A program made the position numbers and the translations under genes. Below, one piece after another: positions 53,271 to 60,842 of a DNA stretch of 64,000 nucleotides (position 1 is the first letter of the stretch; each line of letters starts with the position of its first letter). A model generated the notes under the pieces. The model worked only from the letters and a program-made list of their open reading frames with translations, did not search any database and was not told the DNA's origin. This DNA is from Fodinibius salicampi (GTDB lineage: Bacteria; Bacteroidota; Rhodothermia; Balneolales; Balneolaceae). The stretch spans positions 1-64,000 of the forward strand of contig NZ_BAABRS010000006.1 of the NCBI RefSeq assembly GCF_039545095.1, in the 5' to 3' direction.

Positions 53271-53282
53271 TCATTGAAAAGC

Positions 53283-53876
53283 ATGGTAGGGCTTGAATTT
53301 TCGAATACGCATTTCGCCAAGGTTATGGATTATCCTGACGAGATGTTTGTGTTTGATTTTACGGAAGGCTACGACCCCGAGTTTATTCGGTCGAAGGAAT
53401 GGGGGATAGGTCGATATAACGAGAAAAGAAGCGAGATGTATGTTGCTCCTCAATATCAGAGCCGTCGTGATATTCATATGGGCATTGATATATGGACTAA
53501 AGCCGGAGCCGATGTCTATTCGTTTTATGAAGGAGAAGTTGCCTATATACGGTATAACGACCAGCCGGGTGATTACGGACCGACGTTCGTAGTCGAATAT
53601 TCCATAGAAGAAACGACTCTTTTTGCATTATATGGGCACTTGTCAAAAGAATCACTCGAAAAGGTTAGTGTGGGGGAGAGTATCTCAACGGGAGAGCAAA
53701 TTGCAGAACTTGGCAGCGAGGAGGTAAATGGTGGATGGGTTCCCCATCTCCACTTACAACTTTCACTAGAAGATCCGGGAGAGGCGGATATGCCGGGGGT
53801 AGTGGCGGAAGAAAACCTTGAGGAGGCTCTGTCAGCCTATCCCGATCCCCGAACGGTACTGGGACCTCTTTATTGA
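53283..53876 (+). CDS. M23-family peptidase domain protein without signal peptide
   Basis: A 197-residue LytM/M23 domain protein. The zinc ligands are present: HMGID (His-x3-Asp), then YGHLS and PHLHLQL (His-x-His). M23 enzymes normally cut peptidoglycan cross-bridges outside the membrane, yet this one shows no signal peptide or membrane helix; the N-terminus MVGLEFSNTHFAKVMDYPDE is soluble and charged. ATG 53283 is 12 bases past the glyS stop (TTG 53274 adds three residues and is less likely). A non-secreted role, or export by an unrecognised route, is possible. Convergent with rocD. Confidence 0.8.
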   Translation: MVGLEFSNTHFAKVMDYPDEMFVFDFTEGYDPEFIRSKEWGIGRYNEKRSEMYVAPQYQSRRDIHMGIDIWTKAGADVYSFYEGEVAYIRYNDQPGDYGPTFVVEYSIEETTLFALYGHLSKESLEKVSVGESISTGEQIAELGSEEVNGGWVPHLHLQLSLEDPGEADMPGVVAEENLEEALSAYPDPRTVLGPLY

Positions 53877-53902: not shown

Positions 53903-55144
53903 TTAATTTAATTCATTTTCTTGTTCGTAAGTGCTGATCGTATCGGTAATAATTGATATGCAATCCCGAAGCTGGGTTTCTGTCATTACCAACGGGGGGG
54001 CAAAGCGGATGATGTTCCCATGGGTAGGCTTTGCAAGCAAACCGTTTTCCTTAAGCTGAAGGCAAATGTTCCAGGCCGTATCGCTTTCAGGACTGTCATC
54101 GATGACAATAGCATTGAGTAATCCTTTTCCACGAACAAGACTAACCAGAGAAGAGTCTTCAATGAAATCTGCCATAGCCTTACGGAATATTTCCCCTAGT
54201 TTTTTAGCATTTTCAGCCAGGTTTTCTTCGCGAATAACATCCAGTGCTTCCATGGTGACGGCGCATGCCAATGGATTTCCTCCATAAGTAGATCCGTGTT
54301 CACCGGGTCGCAGACACTCCATGATATCATCATTTGCCAATACGGCGGATACGGGATAGGCTCCGCCCGAAAGGGCTTTACCAAGGATTACAATATCGGG
54401 GCGCACATTTTCGTGATCGACGCAAAGCATCTTCCCGGTGCGGGCAATGCCTGTTTGAATTTCATCTGCAATCAACAGGGTATCGTATTTCTGGCAAAGC
54501 TCCGATGCTTTTGTAAGATATCCTTCATCAGGCACCTTTACACCGGCTTCTCCCTGTATAGGTTCAACCAGAAATCCGGCGACATCCTTTTCCTGTAAAG
54601 CCTGCTCAAGCGCATCAAGATCGTTGTAGGGAATAGAAACAAAGCCCGGAGTATAAGGACCGAAATTTTTTCGGGCTACCGGATCGTTGGAAAAAGAAAT
54701 GATACTGGTGGTCCGGCCATGGAAATTACCTTTGGCTACAATAATGGTCGCTTTTTCAGGAGTGAGATTCTTTTTTTCGTAGGACCATTTGCGGCAAAGT
54801 TTAATGGCTGTTTCAACTCCTTCTGCACCTGTGTTCATGGGCAGGAGTTTGTCATAACCGAACAGCTCACTCATATACTCTTCATAAGCACCCAGCTGAT
54901 CGCTGTAAAAAGCACGGGAAACCAAAGTAAGCTTTTCGGCTTGTTCTTTTAATTTTTTAATAATACGGGGATGACAGTGCCCCTGGTTAACGGCAGAATA
55001 AGCTGATAGAAAGTCATAATAGCGATTACCTTCCGGGTCCCAAACAAAAACACCTTCTCCTTTGGATAGCACTACCGGCAACGGGTGGTAGTTATGCGCT
55101 CCATATTTATCTTCAAGGGATATTGCTTGTTCGGTGGTAATCAT
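53903..55144 (-). CDS. rocD: Ornithine--oxo-acid transaminase
   Basis: PLP enzyme converting L-ornithine and 2-oxoglutarate to glutamate semialdehyde (pyrroline-5-carboxylate) and glutamate. 413 residues: [19 protein letters not shown] at the start, [60 protein letters not shown], and the PLP lysine in [15 protein letters not shown]. The Tyr and Arg residues of ornithine aminotransferases are in the N-terminal part (AHNYHPLP). It faces away from the M20/alr genes across a 210-base region with a C8 tract. Confidence 0.94.
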
Positions 55145-55222
55145 CAGTAAGTGATTGTTGGATTGAAAAATTTATGACATTAAGAAGATACCGTCTTAAC
55201 AACAGAAGGAAAATATTTTTTT

Positions 55223-55259
55223 AATACTTTATCCCCCCCCAATTTTATAAAAAAGTATT
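55223..55259. repeat. C8 homopolymer tract framed by an inverted repeat
   Basis: Eight C in a row at 55233-55240 between AATACTTT (55223-55230) and AAAGTATT (55252-55259). It sits in the divergent region between rocD and the M20 gene, where length changes could alter promoter spacing. Eight bases is at the lower end for slippage. Confidence 0.45.
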
Positions 55260-55354
55260 TGAGAAGGATCGAAAAAAAGATCGTTGGCAATTCTGCATTA
55301 AAATGCACTTATTATTCCTTTGCTATGAATTGTTAAGGAATAAAATTATAGCTC

Positions 55355-56509
55355 ATGCCTTTCGAGATAGAGCAATACATACCCGAATTAAAAAAACTAC
55401 GACACCGGTTGCATGCTGAGGCTGAGATTTCAGGCTCAGAAAAGCAAACGGCTCAAATAATCCAGGAATTTTTATCGGATACTAATCCAGATGACATCCA
55501 GTCTAATATTGGCGGACACGGAATATTAGCAACCTATCTGGGAGAGGCAAACGGCCCGCACATTTTACTGCGTTGTGAGCTCGATGCTTTGCCTATTAAG
55601 GATAAAATTGACGCTTCCTATAAGTCCCGGAAGGAGGGAGTGGGGCATAAGTGTGGTCATGACGGGCATATGAGTATTGTATGTGGAGTGGCTAATATTT
55701 TAGGAGAAGAGGGGCTTTCAAGCGGTCAAGTTTCCCTCCTCTTTCAGCCCTCCGAAGAGACAGGAGAAGGAGCTATGGCTGTTTTGGAGAATCAAAAGTT
55801 TAAAAAGCTAAATCCGGATTATTGTTTTGCACTTCATAATCTGCCAGGATACGAAAAACACCAGGTTGTTATTCGGGAAGGGATTTTTGCAGCCGCCTCG
55901 GCGGGGTTAGCTATTCATTTTTATGGCGAAACATCCCACGCTGCTCATCCTGAAGAAGGAAAAAGTCCCGCACTGGCTGTAGGACAGCTCATACAATCAC
56001 TTTCGTCAGTACCTCAATTCTATTCGTCGCTGGATCAGGCAGTCAAAGTGACGGTTGTCAATGTTGAATTGGGTGAAGAAGCCTATGGTACATCTCCGGC
56101 TGAGGCAACCGTAAGAGTAACCCTTCGTACCTATGATGATGGCGTTTTGAATAACCTCCAAGATCGATGTGTTCAGATAGCTGAAGGACTGGCTTCAACT
56201 TATGATTTAGAGATAGAGCATGATTGGGTTCAGCCTTTTGCAGCCTTGGTGAATGATAGTAAAGCAGTAAAAGTTATACGTGAAAGTGCTGAAAATCAGA
56301 ATCTTAAAGTTTTAAGGAAAGAACTTCCATTTAATTGGTCTGAAGATTTTGGATATTTTTTGAAGGAAATACCCGGAGCAATGTTCGGGTTGGGAAGCGG
56401 GGAGGGGCATCCACCTCTGCATGCTGGAAGCTATGATTTTCCTGATGAAATTATTGTGAGTGGAGTAAAAATGTTTATGCAAATTATTAAAGAAACGGTA
56501 TCGGAGTAA
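55355..56509 (+). CDS. M20-family amidohydrolase/metallopeptidase
   Basis: A 384-residue M20 (IAA-Leu-resistant/HipO type) di-metal hydrolase that removes an acyl or aminoacyl group from an amino acid or dipeptide. The metal ligands are in order: KCGHDGHM (His, Asp), QPSEETGEGA (Glu), ALHNLPG (His), and the C-terminal GSGEGHPPLHAG (His). The dimerisation domain with HAAHPEEG lies between. No signal peptide. Its TAA overlaps the ATG of the alanine racemase gene (TAATG), so the two act together: deacylation and racemisation of an amino acid is a natural inference. Confidence 0.88.
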   Translation: MPFEIEQYIPELKKLRHRLHAEAEISGSEKQTAQIIQEFLSDTNPDDIQSNIGGHGILATYLGEANGPHILLRCELDALPIKDKIDASYKSRKEGVGHKCGHDGHMSIVCGVANILGEEGLSSGQVSLLFQPSEETGEGAMAVLENQKFKKLNPDYCFALHNLPGYEKHQVVIREGIFAAASAGLAIHFYGETSHAAHPEEGKSPALAVGQLIQSLSSVPQFYSSLDQAVKVTVVNVELGEEAYGTSPAEATVRVTLRTYDDGVLNNLQDRCVQIAEGLASTYDLEIEHDWVQPFAALVNDSKAVKVIRESAENQNLKVLRKELPFNWSEDFGYFLKEIPGAMFGLGSGEGHPPLHAGSYDFPDEIIVSGVKMFMQIIKETVSE

Positions 56510-57681
56510 TGAAAGATCTGTTCTACCCTTCACACATTGAATTGAATGAAGCGGCTTTTAAGAAAAATATTACCTTCCTCAGAGATTATATTGGTAAAGA
56601 TGTAGTGTTCAGCTCAGTTATAAAGGGTAATGCATACGGCCACGGCATCGAATATTTTGTCCCCATGGCAGAGGATTGTGGCGTTCGTCATTTTTCAGTG
56701 TTTAGTTCAGATGAAGCACGTAAAGCACAGAGAGCTTCTTCCCATTCCAGTACCCATATTATGATTATGGGTATGATTAGCAATGATGTGATTGCCTGGG
56801 CAATTGAGCATGAGATCTCGTTCTTTATTTTTGAATTAGACAGGCTTAAAGCTGCGATCAAAGAAGCGCGGCGATTGGGCAAGTCAGCTCGGATCCATTT
56901 GCACCTTGAAACCGGCATGAATCGGCTTGGCTTGGCGCCTGAAAAATTTGAAGATGCGGTTCAGATGCTGAAGGAAAATCACAAGTATCTGGAAGTAGAT
57001 GGGTTATGTACCCATTATGCTGGCGCGGAAAGTGTGGGTAATTACGTCCGTATTAAAAAGCAGATCGAAAACTTTGATGAATATTGTTCCTGGTTTAAAG
57101 AAGAGGGAATCGAAGCAAAGCAAATACATTCGGCTTGCTCAGCTTCGGCCCTGAATTATCCGGATACTATTATGGATATGGTCCGGATCGGGATTGCCCA
57201 GTATGGTTTTTGGCCTAACCGCGAAACATATATGAATTTTGTAAAACGACATCCGAGAGTTGATGAAGAACATCAGGATCCCCTAAAACGGATCATAAGC
57301 TGGAAGAGTAAAGTGATGAGCACGAAAAAAGTACCAGCGGGTGAATTTGTGGGCTATGGCAATACCTATTTAACCAGTCGTGACCAAAATATAGCAACTG
57401 TGCCCATTGGCTATTCGCATGGTTTCGGTCGTAATTTGACCAATGTAGGTATTGTACTTATTAATGGAGAGCGAGCACCCGTAGCGGGATTAGTGAATAT
57501 GAATCTATTGACTGTTGATATTACCGATATCCCAAACGTTCAAAAAGGAGATGAAGTAGTAATCATAGGGAAACAGGGAGATCAGGAAATGACCGTTGCT
57601 TCTTTTAGTGAAATGCGTAATTTCATGAATTATGAAGTTCTTGTACAAATACCTTCAACATTGCCTCGGTATATTGTTTAG
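56509..57681 (+). CDS. Alanine racemase-family enzyme
   Basis: A 390-residue fold type III PLP racemase. The N-terminal barrel has the PLP lysine at residue 39 in VIKGNAYGHG (usually VVKANAYGHG), HLETGMNRLGL, VRIGIAQYGFWP and, in the C-terminal beta domain, the catalytic Tyr at residue 283 in VGYGNTY, then VDITDIP and GDEVVIIG. It is a complete Alr. Its coupling to an M20 hydrolase and proximity to a second racemase make a specialised amino-acid role, rather than only cell-wall D-alanine, plausible. Overlaps the previous gene by one base; ends before the terminator at 57780. Confidence 0.9.
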   Translation: MKDLFYPSHIELNEAAFKKNITFLRDYIGKDVVFSSVIKGNAYGHGIEYFVPMAEDCGVRHFSVFSSDEARKAQRASSHSSTHIMIMGMISNDVIAWAIEHEISFFIFELDRLKAAIKEARRLGKSARIHLHLETGMNRLGLAPEKFEDAVQMLKENHKYLEVDGLCTHYAGAESVGNYVRIKKQIENFDEYCSWFKEEGIEAKQIHSACSASALNYPDTIMDMVRIGIAQYGFWPNRETYMNFVKRHPRVDEEHQDPLKRIISWKSKVMSTKKVPAGEFVGYGNTYLTSRDQNIATVPIGYSHGFGRNLTNVGIVLINGERAPVAGLVNMNLLTVDITDIPNVQKGDEVVIIGKQGDQEMTVASFSEMRNFMNYEVLVQIPSTLPRYIV

Positions 57682-57779
57682 TAATATATACAGCCTGTGT
57701 AGATGGAGAAGAAACGTGGCCATGTATCATATTTGGATATTCTGTTAAGGAAAGCCTATATTAACACGCAATAAATTTT

Positions 57780-57811
57780 AACCCTTGGGTGTAAAGCTCA
57801 AGGGTTTTTTT
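57780..57811 (+). terminator. Rho-independent terminator after the racemase gene
   Basis: AACCCTTG (57780-57787) pairs with CAAGGGTT (57799-57806) around an 11-base loop, followed by a T-run. It separates M20-alr from the symporter unit and shows that the in-frame codon at 57785 is not the symporter start. Confidence 0.85.
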
Positions 57812-57847
57812 ATTAGATGGAAATCCAACATTTGGATTAAAATAATT

Positions 57848-59296
57848 ATGCATTGGATTGACCTAACGATCTTTATCTGCTATATGTTAGGGATGTTGGG
57901 ATTTGGCTTCTTCTTCCTGAGTAGAAATGAAGGAGCAGATGATTACTATGTGGGTGGACGTAATATGAACAGCCTCCATATTGGTCTCTCAGTAGTTGCT
58001 ACTGATGTCGGTGGTGGGTTTTCTATTGGTTTGGGAGGGCTCGGTTTTGTGATGGGAATATCAGGATCCTGGATGCTTTTTACCGGTCTGGTAGGGGCAT
58101 GGCTGGCAGCCGTTTTCCTTATTCCCAAAGTGAAAGGAAATCCTGTTTTCGATAAAGCTTTTACCTTCCCGGAAATATTCAAACATTATTTTACCCCTGA
58201 AGTGGCTCTTGTTGCCGGAATTATTTCTGCAATTGGTTACGCCGGATTTACCAGCTCTCAGATTTTAGCCGGTGCAAAATTAGCTACGGGGACCTTTGCC
58301 GATCTCGATCTCCAAACAGCACTCATAATTATGGGATCTGTGGCAGTATTATATACAGTGATGGGAGGACTCAAAGCCGTCATTTATACCGATACGGTAC
58401 AATGGACTATTTTGATGCTGGGCCTGATTTTTATTGGGGTACCGCTCTCTTACACCGCCGTGGGAGGATGGGAAGGGATAACCCAAAATGTAGATCCTGC
58501 ACTGTTATCGATGGGTAACTTAACATGGCAGCGAGTAGTCTATTGGGGGGCTACCATTATTCCTATCTGGTTTGTTGGAATGACCCTCTATCAGCGTATA
58601 TATGCTTGCAACGACGAAAAAACAGCTAAAAGAGCGTGGTATTTGGCTGGTGTATTTGAATGGCCGATTATGGCTTTTATGGGGGTTTCTCTCGGACTTT
58701 TTGCAAAGGTAGGTGCTGCACAGGGAATGTTCGAATATCTCGGAGCAGCTGATGTATCGGATACTGATCCCGAAACAGGCCTACCGATGTTATTACGAAC
58801 AATACTACCGGTCGGGCTTATGGGTATCATGATGAGTGCGTATTTTTCAGCTATTCTTTCTACGGCTGATAGTTGCCTGATGGCGGCATCGGGAAATACA
58901 GTTTCAGATATTATTGGTTATTTTAAGGAGGTAGATCACGATAGTGATACCTTTTTACGGTTTTCCCAGATTACCACATTGGTTATCGGTACGCTTGCTC
59001 TGCTTATTGCTACCACAATGACTAATGTACTGGATCTGATGCTATATTCGTATGCCTTTATGGTATCAGGTCTATTCGTTCCGGTTTTAGGTGCTCTCTA
59101 TTGGGAGAAAAGCAGTAGCATAGGTGCTATTGGAGCTATGATCATGGGTGGAACAACAACCCTATTACTTGAGTTACTTATAGAAGAGCTTCCTGCGGGT
59201 CTTGATGCCAATGTGTTTGGAATTACAGTATCAGCCATTGTGTTTATATCATTATCGCTATTATTCCCGGACAATGAATCGTCCAATATATCATAA
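57848..59296 (+). CDS. Sodium:solute symporter (SSS family)
   Basis: A 482-residue inner-membrane protein with about 13 hydrophobic helices of the LeuT-fold SSS type. It starts MHWIDLTIFICYMLG and shows ADDYYVGGRNMN, the usual G-rich helix GGGFSIGLGGLGF, the sodium-site helix ILSTADSCLMAASG and the R-x-x-Q helix (LRFSQITTLVIG). Members move proline, pantothenate, sugars or other small solutes with Na+. In this context an amino acid or dipeptide is the likeliest cargo, which is inference. ATG 57848 is chosen because the terminator at 57780-57811 overlaps the longer frame. Starts a second unit with the GNAT and racemase genes. Confidence 0.9.
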   Translation: MHWIDLTIFICYMLGMLGFGFFFLSRNEGADDYYVGGRNMNSLHIGLSVVATDVGGGFSIGLGGLGFVMGISGSWMLFTGLVGAWLAAVFLIPKVKGNPVFDKAFTFPEIFKHYFTPEVALVAGIISAIGYAGFTSSQILAGAKLATGTFADLDLQTALIIMGSVAVLYTVMGGLKAVIYTDTVQWTILMLGLIFIGVPLSYTAVGGWEGITQNVDPALLSMGNLTWQRVVYWGATIIPIWFVGMTLYQRIYACNDEKTAKRAWYLAGVFEWPIMAFMGVSLGLFAKVGAAQGMFEYLGAADVSDTDPETGLPMLLRTILPVGLMGIMMSAYFSAILSTADSCLMAASGNTVSDIIGYFKEVDHDSDTFLRFSQITTLVIGTLALLIATTMTNVLDLMLYSYAFMVSGLFVPVLGALYWEKSSSIGAIGAMIMGGTTTLLLELLIEELPAGLDANVFGITVSAIVFISLSLLFPDNESSNIS

Positions 59297-59327
59297 GTCA
59301 GTCAATATTTAACAATTAAATATTTTT

Positions 59328-59768
59328 ATGCGCTTTGACATTTTACAATCAGATGCAGAAAACCCTACTTCTTTTGGAAGGGAGGATATCACCAATTTCT
59401 TATATGAACATCTGGATGAATACGGTGACGCCAAGAAACATATTTTAAATTGCATAAGCTATGCTTACGGAGATAAAGAATGTCAGGATGGGTTTATATT
59501 AGTCGCTCATAAAAATAAAAGAATTATGGGTGTGGTTATTATTAATCATACTAATATGGGTGGATATATACCGGAACATATCTTGGTTTATATCGCAGTT
59601 CATAAAGAAACGCGGGGAGAGGGTGTTGGGAAACAGCTAATGGAACGGATTATTGAAGCAACGGACGGAGATATTGCTCTTCATGTGGAACCCGATAACC
59701 CTGCAATACATCTGTATGAAAAATATGGATTCACAAATGATTATTTAGAAATGCGACTAAAGAAATAG
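59328..59768 (+). CDS. GNAT-family N-acetyltransferase
   Basis: A 146-residue acetyltransferase. The acetyl-CoA motif A is ILVYIAVHKETRGEGVGKQLM (R/Q-x-x-G-x-G) near residues 85-105, followed by LHVEPDNPAIHLYEKYGF (motif B). A long N-terminal helix pair precedes the core. The substrate is unknown; among GNAT proteins next to amino-acid racemases, amino-group acetylation of an amino acid is a reasonable guess. It lies 31 bases after the symporter and its stop is 3 bases before the next start. Confidence 0.85.
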   Translation: MRFDILQSDAENPTSFGREDITNFLYEHLDEYGDAKKHILNCISYAYGDKECQDGFILVAHKNKRIMGVVIINHTNMGGYIPEHILVYIAVHKETRGEGVGKQLMERIIEATDGDIALHVEPDNPAIHLYEKYGFTNDYLEMRLKK

Positions 59769-59771
59769 GGA

Positions 59772-60842
59772 ATGGCCTATTTAAAATTATATAGAGATAA
59801 GCTGCGTCATAATTATAATTTCCTCGATGATCTTTTTAAAGAGAATGACATCAAATGGGGAATAACAACAAAGCTACTGTGTGGACATGAAGCGTTCTTA
59901 AAAGAAGTTGCTGAATTAGGTATTGGTGAAATGCATGATTCCCGGATCAGTAATCTGAAGAAGATTAAAGAGATCGATCCGGATACAATGACTACTTATA
60001 TTAAGCCCCCGCCAAAGGATATTATCGAGTCGGTGGTGAAGTATGCCGATGCAAGCTTGAATACGGAGCTTTCTACCCTGCATGCCCTTTCTGAAGAAGC
60101 AAAAAGGCAGGATAAAGTACATAAGGTTATTATAATGATTGAGATGGGGGACCTGCGGGAGGGAGTAGTCCGGGAAAATCTTATTGGTTTTTACGAAAAG
60201 GTATTTAAGTTGACCAATATAGAAGTGATTGGTATTGGGACCAATCTGAATTGCATGCACGGGGTTATGCCTGATGAAGATAAGCTCATTCAACTATCTC
60301 TGTATAAACAGATTATTGAACTTCAATTCGACAAAACCATTCCATTGGTTTCAGGTGGAACTACGGTCACTATACCTTTACTGCTGAGAAACCAGTTGCC
60401 CAGAGGTATCAACCATTTTCGGGTAGGTGAAGCGCTGTTCTTTGGCAAAGACCTTTTTGCAGACGGAACAATCGAGGGTATGCACAATGACGTGTTGGAA
60501 CTATATACCCAGATTATTGAAATATCGGAAAAACCTAAAGTTCCGACCGGAGAGCTGGGAAAAGACCCGCAGGGTAACACGGTTGAAATTGACGAGGATG
60601 ATTATGGGAAAACATCTTATCGGGCTATTCTGGATATTGGATACCTGGATATAAACCCGGATCATCTGATTAATGTAGAGGATGATGTAGAAATTGTTGA
60701 TGCAAGCTCGGATATGCTAATCCTGGATGTAGGGGATAATACATCTGGTTATGAAGTGGGCGACTTTATAAGATTCCGGATGAATTATATGGGAGCATTA
60801 GGGATTATGAATTCAGACTATATAGATAAGATTGTTGAATAA
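59772..60842 (+). CDS. Ornithine/alanine racemase-family PLP enzyme
   Basis: A 356-residue fold type III protein of the Orr/YhfX-like branch. The PLP lysine is at residue 34 in GITTKLLCG, and ELGIGEMHDSRISNLKKI plus IMIEMGDLREGV are typical of ornithine racemases, as is the C-terminal DGNTSGY-like GDNTSGYEVGDFIRFRMNYMG. The known clostridial enzyme interconverts L- and D-ornithine; substrate here is inferred. With rocD only 4 kb away, D-ornithine to L-ornithine to glutamate semialdehyde is an attractive route. Starts ATG 59772, 3 bases after the GNAT stop. Confidence 0.82.
   Translation: MAYLKLYRDKLRHNYNFLDDLFKENDIKWGITTKLLCGHEAFLKEVAELGIGEMHDSRISNLKKIKEIDPDTMTTYIKPPPKDIIESVVKYADASLNTELSTLHALSEEAKRQDKVHKVIIMIEMGDLREGVVRENLIGFYEKVFKLTNIEVIGIGTNLNCMHGVMPDEDKLIQLSLYKQIIELQFDKTIPLVSGGTTVTIPLLLRNQLPRGINHFRVGEALFFGKDLFADGTIEGMHNDVLELYTQIIEISEKPKVPTGELGKDPQGNTVEIDEDDYGKTSYRAILDIGYLDINPDHLINVEDDVEIVDASSDMLILDVGDNTSGYEVGDFIRFRMNYMGALGIMNSDYIDKIVE

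Follow-up and report, generated by a model that had tools for sequence, protein, structure and literature searches.

Ornithine racemase (Orr) is known from the oxidative D-ornithine pathway (PMC8803604), whose genes are orr-oraS-oraE-ord-ortA-ortB. Racemisation in a D-glutamate route through DgcN is reported to be irreversible and costly (PMC12363236), and a broad-spectrum, periplasmic racemase, Alr, takes part in the lysine catabolism of Pseudomonas putida (PMC6034422); a paper on RacX refers to a Flavobacteriales strain with a gene annotated as ornithine racemase (PMC12838360). In this study, a gene cluster of Fodinibius salicampi (phylum Bacteroidota, order Balneolales; genome of 3.94 megabases on 11 contigs) was analyzed, which lies at positions 53903-60842 of a 64,000-nucleotide stretch, hereafter the window. 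It encodes an ornithine--oxo-acid transaminase (OAT/RocD), an M20-family amidohydrolase, an Alr-family enzyme dependent on pyridoxal 5′-phosphate (PLP), a sodium:solute symporter (SSS), a GNAT N-acetyltransferase and an Orr-like racemase. A reading made from the sequence alone had proposed these six genes as a D-amino-acid, possibly D-ornithine, uptake and conversion cluster, and all six were found at the places and in the families it gave, by Pfam and NCBIfam scores. The cluster represents a recurring module, unnamed as far as the literature was searched, whose core includes an Orr-like enzyme of a distinct subfamily; in the open literature, judged by titles and the beginnings of abstracts and with supplements outside the scope, no description of it was found.

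The Orr-like protein (59772-60842, plus strand), a fold-III PLP racemase of the Pfam family Ala_racemase_N, shares family and fold with Orr of the D-ornithine pathway. Against the curated Orr model NF040742, however, it scored 325.4 bits and missed the cut-off of 480, while the control from the locus L101 (see below) reached 494.3 bits; judged by this model, the enzyme is not predicted to be an Orr. A tree of 48 rows split 43 sequences linked to GNAT from five of the D-ornithine type with a support of 100/100 (midpoint rooting served display alone, and L189, one of the five, sits on a long branch), so the window enzyme falls into a clade of its own, sister to the D-ornithine-pathway Orr. An Or-4 match adjoined four of the five D-ornithine-type rows, L189 being the exception.

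Both groups keep K34, R129, N158, R217, S313-D314, Y339 and Y350, which we take to be the likely catalytic frame, the roles being assigned by motif and residue numbering; K34, invariant in 25 aligned rows, would by its position be the PLP lysine. Eight positions are more than 90% conserved within each group and differ between them, with A2, W29, Y76, I77, K78, M315, M340 and N347 in the window group vs. P, V, L, L, R, H, G and T, respectively, in the D-ornithine Orr. Neither an aminomutase nor a thiolase was found by Pfam and NCBIfam among the scanned genes, which were those of the window alone. The ornithine-racemase-like label proposed earlier was right about the nearest curated family, but an identity as Orr itself is undercut by the missed cut-off, the separate clade and a GNAT link unlike that of true Orr.

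The AlphaFold model of the Orr-like protein (predicted local distance difference test, pLDDT, 92.9) had amino-acid, alanine and lysine racemases as its best matches, with 4dyj (Z 27.8) and 4dza (Z 27.5) tied at a root-mean-square deviation of 2.7 over 322 and 321 aligned residues, respectively. Against solved structures, the sequence alone gave no match and its profile gave weak matches only. Broad-spectrum and lysine racemases of the Alr family (P. putida Alr, PMC6034422; 4dyj, 4dza, 4beu), which are among these best matches, have the Alr fold and interconvert the D and L forms of basic amino acids to feed catabolism. The P. putida enzyme is periplasmic, while the window proteins, which fall into other subfamilies, show by eye no evident signal sequence.

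The GNAT gene (59328-59768, plus strand; Pfam matches to several GNAT models) ends 3 bases before the Orr-like gene. Over 296 genomes drawn evenly across the phylum, the Orr-like protein gave 48 matches, of which 7 weak ones (E 2.6e-7 to 4.5e-4) were dropped to leave 41, and GNAT (E ≤ 1e-15) was likewise found in 41 genomes. Both genes were present in 40 of the 42 genomes that have either one, in ten families, with a hypergeometric P of 3e-47 that ignores kinship. The sole GNAT without an Orr match was in genome G128, and the sole Orr match without GNAT was in G197, whose locus L101 is a true ornithine racemase locus, as Ord, OrtA, OrtB, OraE, Or-4 and Orr each scored over their NCBIfam cut-offs; a small protein of OraS size there gave no family match. 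In a further sample around G197 an Orr match was found in 16 of 79 genomes, comprising 11 window-like and 5 D-ornithine-type loci. All 11 window-like loci have an adjoining GNAT match (7 of these genomes are already in the 296-genome profile), while no GNAT match was found within up to 1.5 kilobases (kb) on either side of the 5 D-ornithine-type loci. These results indicate that GNAT is a near-obligate partner of the Orr-like racemase, and that the pair is the core of the module, with M20-Alr being optional.

Gene neighborhoods were compared over 118 loci picked for encoding an Orr-like relative, 38 from sampled genomes and 80 from titled records (best 80 of 583); removal of 4 duplicates left 114, and with 22 cut off at the locus end, 92 untruncated loci were counted, genomes among which are related. 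Genes at most 1500 bases apart were joined into one chain. The closest titled relatives of the Orr-like protein, within the best 80 of 583 and with the window's own record possibly left out, were from Fodinibius and Aliifodinibius at 88-89%. In the chain of the Orr-like gene, GNAT was found in 91 of the 92 loci (L101 being the exception), SSS in 73, M20 in 48, Alr in 46, and an M23-peptidase-like gene in 29. The SSS count includes L093 and L099, each with a distant SSS only, and L094 and L170 were scored as lacking M20-Alr, which in both is present at a distance of a few kb. Among the named genes, GNAT stood directly beside Orr in 72 of 92 loci; L100 has an unnamed frame separating the two. 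The presence of M20 and Alr, nearly always paired, differed in only 2 of 92 loci.

All five genes, SSS, GNAT, Orr, M20 and Alr, occurred together on one strand in 45 of 92 loci, in shuffled orders. In detail, SSS-GNAT-Orr-M23-M20-Alr was found in 23 loci and the same order without M23 in 2, SSS-GNAT-M20-Alr-Orr in 18, and GNAT-Orr-SSS-M20-Alr in 2, while the window order, M20-Alr-SSS-GNAT-Orr, is a further arrangement that none of the 92 loci has. Because the same genes recur on one strand in shuffled orders, and in view of the counts across the phylum, the grouping is not due to chance but marks a conserved, functionally linked set. The sequence-only reading had proposed a set of genes for importing amino acids and interconverting their D and L forms, and this recurrence of two fold-III racemases, M20, GNAT and a symporter bears it out. 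The co-occurrence it had put forward for six genes holds for these five, but seemingly not for OAT, which is absent from 24 of the 42 Balneolales genomes that bear the racemase.

That the genes are accidental neighbors of no joint function could be argued from the window itself, where they form two transcription units. M20-Alr and SSS-GNAT-Orr are divided by a hairpin (57780-57806, plus strand) that resembles a terminator and has a T tail, in agreement with the two units claimed from the sequence; the surrounding region holds 11 terminator-like sites vs. 6.8 expected, so that the hairpin is weak on its own. Accidental proximity is nevertheless contradicted by the 92-locus counts, with the same genes on the same strand in four orders including that of the window and ten families with both core genes, and is scarcely credible.

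The symporter gene (57848-59296, plus strand; PF00474, 168 bits) encodes a PutP-like protein that scored 155.6 bits against PutP TIGR02121 and missed its cut-off of 515. Its start is most likely the ATG at 57848 rather than the upstream TTG; the L066 protein begins with MHWIDL. In four genomes, a distant SSS of 24-26% identity replaces the usual symporter beside the Orr-like gene (L093/L194 in G122, L099/L191 in G263, L195 in G376 and L198 in G348), as if transport were needed but the carrier exchangeable. The symporter also bears on a detoxification role, in which GNAT would inactivate toxic D-amino acids or analogues that are co-imported and the racemases would restore the L form. N-acetylation detoxifies D-amino acids in yeast, and such a role would suit a GNAT that is a near-obligate partner; however, 73 of 92 loci have a symporter, which speaks for a compound that is wanted, not disposed of, and this explanation is regarded as very unlikely.

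The M20 protein (55355-56509, plus strand) is of the aminoacylase/deacetylase type (TIGR01891, 225 bits against a cut-off of 154), while its next-best model, DoeB2 (NF038260), gave 219.7 bits and missed the cut-off of 550, so that it does not qualify as an ectoine deacetylase. Its metal-site motifs HKCGHDGH, QPxEE, HN and lH are conserved in 60 rows.

The M20 gene overlaps the Alr gene (56509-57681, plus strand) by TAATG, as had been claimed and is visible in the DNA. The cluster Alr passes the alanine racemase cut-off (TIGR00492, 276.2 bits against 168) and has retained both the GYG motif and that of the PLP lysine, yet belongs to a separate subfamily whose own motifs differ, namely THYAGAES (43 of 57 sequences, with close variants in the others) and VNMN (55 of 57, with INMN in the remaining 2). 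Compared with the other two Alr proteins of the window genome, it is 26% identical to that encoded on contig C1 and 45% to that on C2. Asparagine at the Asp313 site of Alr was rejected as a mark of the cluster Alr, as the C1 Alr also has asparagine there (VTMN); only the NMN combination and THYAGAES separate the two. No paper carrying a footprint for broad-spectrum racemases was found in the open literature.

The OAT gene (53903-55144, minus strand; TIGR01885, 667.5 bits against a cut-off of 378) adjoins the window cluster, and OAT had been proposed as the drain of ornithine to glutamate semialdehyde. Within Balneolales, where some genomes are incomplete drafts, 58 genomes were scanned for L-lysine 6-transaminase (TIGR03251; three tested proteins over the cut-off), 42 of which bear the racemase. 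At a presence threshold of E ≤ 1e-120, OAT was lacking in the 24 genomes mentioned above, while 16 of the 18 racemase-bearing genomes that have it, that of the window included, carry it within 20 kb of the Orr-like gene. Of nine relatives with OAT but without the racemase, six have the genes for OAT and L-lysine 6-transaminase no more than 1.5 kb apart. Because of these absences and pairings, OAT most likely goes with L-lysine 6-transaminase and not with the core module.

These data weigh on the D-ornithine explanation, by which D-ornithine would be taken up and racemised to L-ornithine, for OAT to drain into glutamate semialdehyde. The adjoining OAT gene, its nearness to the racemase in other genomes of the order, and ornithine racemase as the nearest curated family agree with it, whereas OAT is missing from more than half of the racemase-bearing genomes and otherwise tied to L-lysine 6-transaminase, the Orr cut-off was missed, and GNAT is left without a role. 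Uptake and catabolism of D-ornithine in this form is considered unlikely, and the drain through OAT is weakened. The sequence-only reading was hence right, and even understated, in its observation, while its account of D-ornithine passing to OAT is partly supported.

A basic (diamino) amino acid remains the best guess for the substrate, because Orr is the nearest curated family, lysine and ornithine transaminases often lie nearby (in 26 of the order's 42 racemase-bearing genomes, L-lysine 6-transaminase is at most 20 kb from the Orr-like gene), and one locus, L137, runs into arg genes. In L137, GNAT-SSS-Orr is followed on one strand by genes for an ATP-grasp protein, a protein of ~650 residues and an Alr of the cluster subfamily (cassette L137:11148-15632), and these by argB-argD-argC-argJ, which is a direct link between the module and the arg genes of ornithine synthesis. 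In the window genome, the locus L064 (G000:C2:468658-477709) has argB-argD-argC-argJ followed by an ATP-grasp protein, a 659-residue protein and an Alr of the cluster subfamily. Two argC genes in the window genome scored over the cut-off (C1:1802940 and C2:470798), one of them outside the ATP-grasp locus. The same trio is also found in genomes G030 and G040 (L213, L214), there with no adjoining arg genes. The nearest solved relative of the ATP-grasp protein is the L-amino acid ligase 4wd3 (E 6e-8), while the 659-residue protein gave no convincing Pfam or NCBIfam match. Among the 296 genomes, the ATP-grasp protein had 3 strong matches and 10 more weak ones at 25-30% identity; all 3 strong genomes have the Orr-like gene, which is weak on its own, as all belong to the window's order, where that gene is common. 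The cassette suggests a D-ornithine-type product in some genomes.

On this cassette a biosynthetic explanation mainly rests, in which the racemase would make a D-diamino acid and GNAT would cap it, e.g., as N-acetylated D-ornithine or D-lysine for use as a solute or a block of wall or peptide, with M20 and the symporter recovering it. The joining of the cassette to the ornithine-synthesis genes in two genomes, in L137 also 3′ of GNAT-SSS-Orr, agrees with this. So do the 17 of 92 loci in which GNAT-Orr stands without the other named genes in its chain, and a gene that by eye resembles universal stress proteins, directly 5′ of GNAT-Orr in three loci of one family (L089, L091, L092). An AraC-type-looking regulator lies 3′ of Orr in the same three loci. 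On the other hand, the ATP-grasp protein, strong in only 3 of 296 genomes, is far rarer than the module, an SSS symporter normally imports, and we know of no such metabolite from these bacteria. A biosynthetic role of this kind is rated as rather unlikely.

The explanation that we favor, while giving it somewhat less than an even chance, is a conserved Bacteroidota module that imports an amino acid, most probably a basic (diamino) one, and interconverts its D and L forms. The Na+ symporter would import the amino acid or an acylated form of it, the Orr-like PLP racemase would equilibrate the D and L forms, and GNAT would acetylate one product, spending acetyl-CoA to drive the otherwise reversible racemisation in one direction. 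As a racemase alone yields a 1:1 mixture, an enantiomer-selective GNAT would make the step one-way. PLP racemases require a free alpha-amino group, so that acetylation must follow racemisation or hit a side-chain amine. Where the M20-Alr pair is present, M20 would strip the acyl group and the second racemase would handle a further or the released amino acid; in the 44 of 92 loci whose chain has no M20, the acetylated compound would either be where the pathway ends or be processed elsewhere. The resulting free amino acid, L-lysine or L-ornithine, would feed into general metabolism, in this family via L-lysine 6-transaminase and OAT. While the genes, their families and linkage and the sister relation to true Orr are shown, the substrate class, the action of GNAT on the racemase product and the direction of flow are the parts of this scheme that we infer.

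A more specific and rather doubtful extension is an acetyl-CoA-driven, one-way deracemisation of diamino acids, in which the new Orr-like subfamily and a stereoselective GNAT would form a PLP-based counterpart of DgcN and M20 would release the product, with some genomes wired to ornithine synthesis and an ATP-grasp ligase for a D-ornithine compound. DgcN is an N-acetyltransferase and DgcA an N-acetyl-amino-acid racemase. No DgcN- or DgcA-type protein was found among the six window proteins (Pfam, E ≤ 0.001), and the proteins of the two systems are unrelated, the window having GNAT and PLP racemases instead. The likeness lies in racemisation made one-way at an energetic cost, for which the DgcN route is a precedent in principle (PMC12363236).

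Several observations weigh against the favored explanation. D-threonine aldolases and D-serine dehydratase follow the racemases among the matches to the Orr-like model at Z 26 to 25, and with non-racemase matches nearly as good, the fold alone does not prove racemisation. The residues specific to the window group, among them Y76, K78 and M315, could mean another substrate. The GNAT model (pLDDT 84.7, dropping toward the C terminus) has generic fold matches that include protein acetyltransferases, which ruled out deducing the substrate from this fold. Besides the 17 loci whose chain holds GNAT-Orr only, 22 of 92 have only SSS in addition there (17 SSS-GNAT-Orr, 4 GNAT-Orr-SSS and 1 GNAT-SSS-Orr), and therefore the M20 step need not be essential. 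L-lysine 6-transaminase was rejected as a fixed partner, since 57 of 58 genomes of the order have it, racemase or not, and across the phylum it is hardly enriched (26 of 41 racemase-bearing genomes vs. 158 of 296 overall); in the window genome it lies on another contig (C1:1710664-1711950). The nearness of lysine and ornithine genes within one order may also stem from one ancestor.

In the window, the M23-peptidase-like gene (53274-53876, plus strand; PF01551) lies directly after glyS, between glyS and OAT, with a TTG start as listed and an ATG at 53283. The earlier gene list, correct for its six genes, had overlooked it, and it is a usual member of the cluster in relatives. Its product resembles the middle part of PRK06148, a kinase-M23-aminotransferase protein, and has no signal sequence evident by eye; it is possibly cytoplasmic, and is unusual in an amino-acid gene cluster. 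A 34% relative stands just upstream of GNAT in L200. In seven loci a gene for a SusC-like outer-membrane receptor, labeled by eye and BLAST, lies directly 3′ of Alr on the same strand (L071, L072, L074, L075, L106, L109 and L117), and RND-pump-like genes were seen by eye near Alr in some others. A hydroxylysine route, considered from the PRK06148-like M23 protein and proteins of ~1040 residues 3′ of Alr, was dropped, as the latter look SusC-like or RND-pump-like by eye from their first residues; no search for the kinase or phospho-lyase was made. The six window proteins matched their own Pfam families only (E ≤ 0.001), and five proteins gave no match to the PADLOC defence models.

Because 40 of the 41 Orr matches in the 296 genomes have a GNAT partner, and only that in G197 is of the D-ornithine-pathway type, proteins of the Orr-like clade should not be named "ornithine racemase" by similarity alone. 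Organic matter contains D-amino acids as a fraction that is used slowly, and to our knowledge the use or making of D-amino acids other than D-Ala and D-Glu by Bacteroidota has been little studied. The module described here is a compact, recurring gene set, of which GNAT and the Orr-like racemase, two small and seldom-parted proteins, offer a direct biochemical entry.

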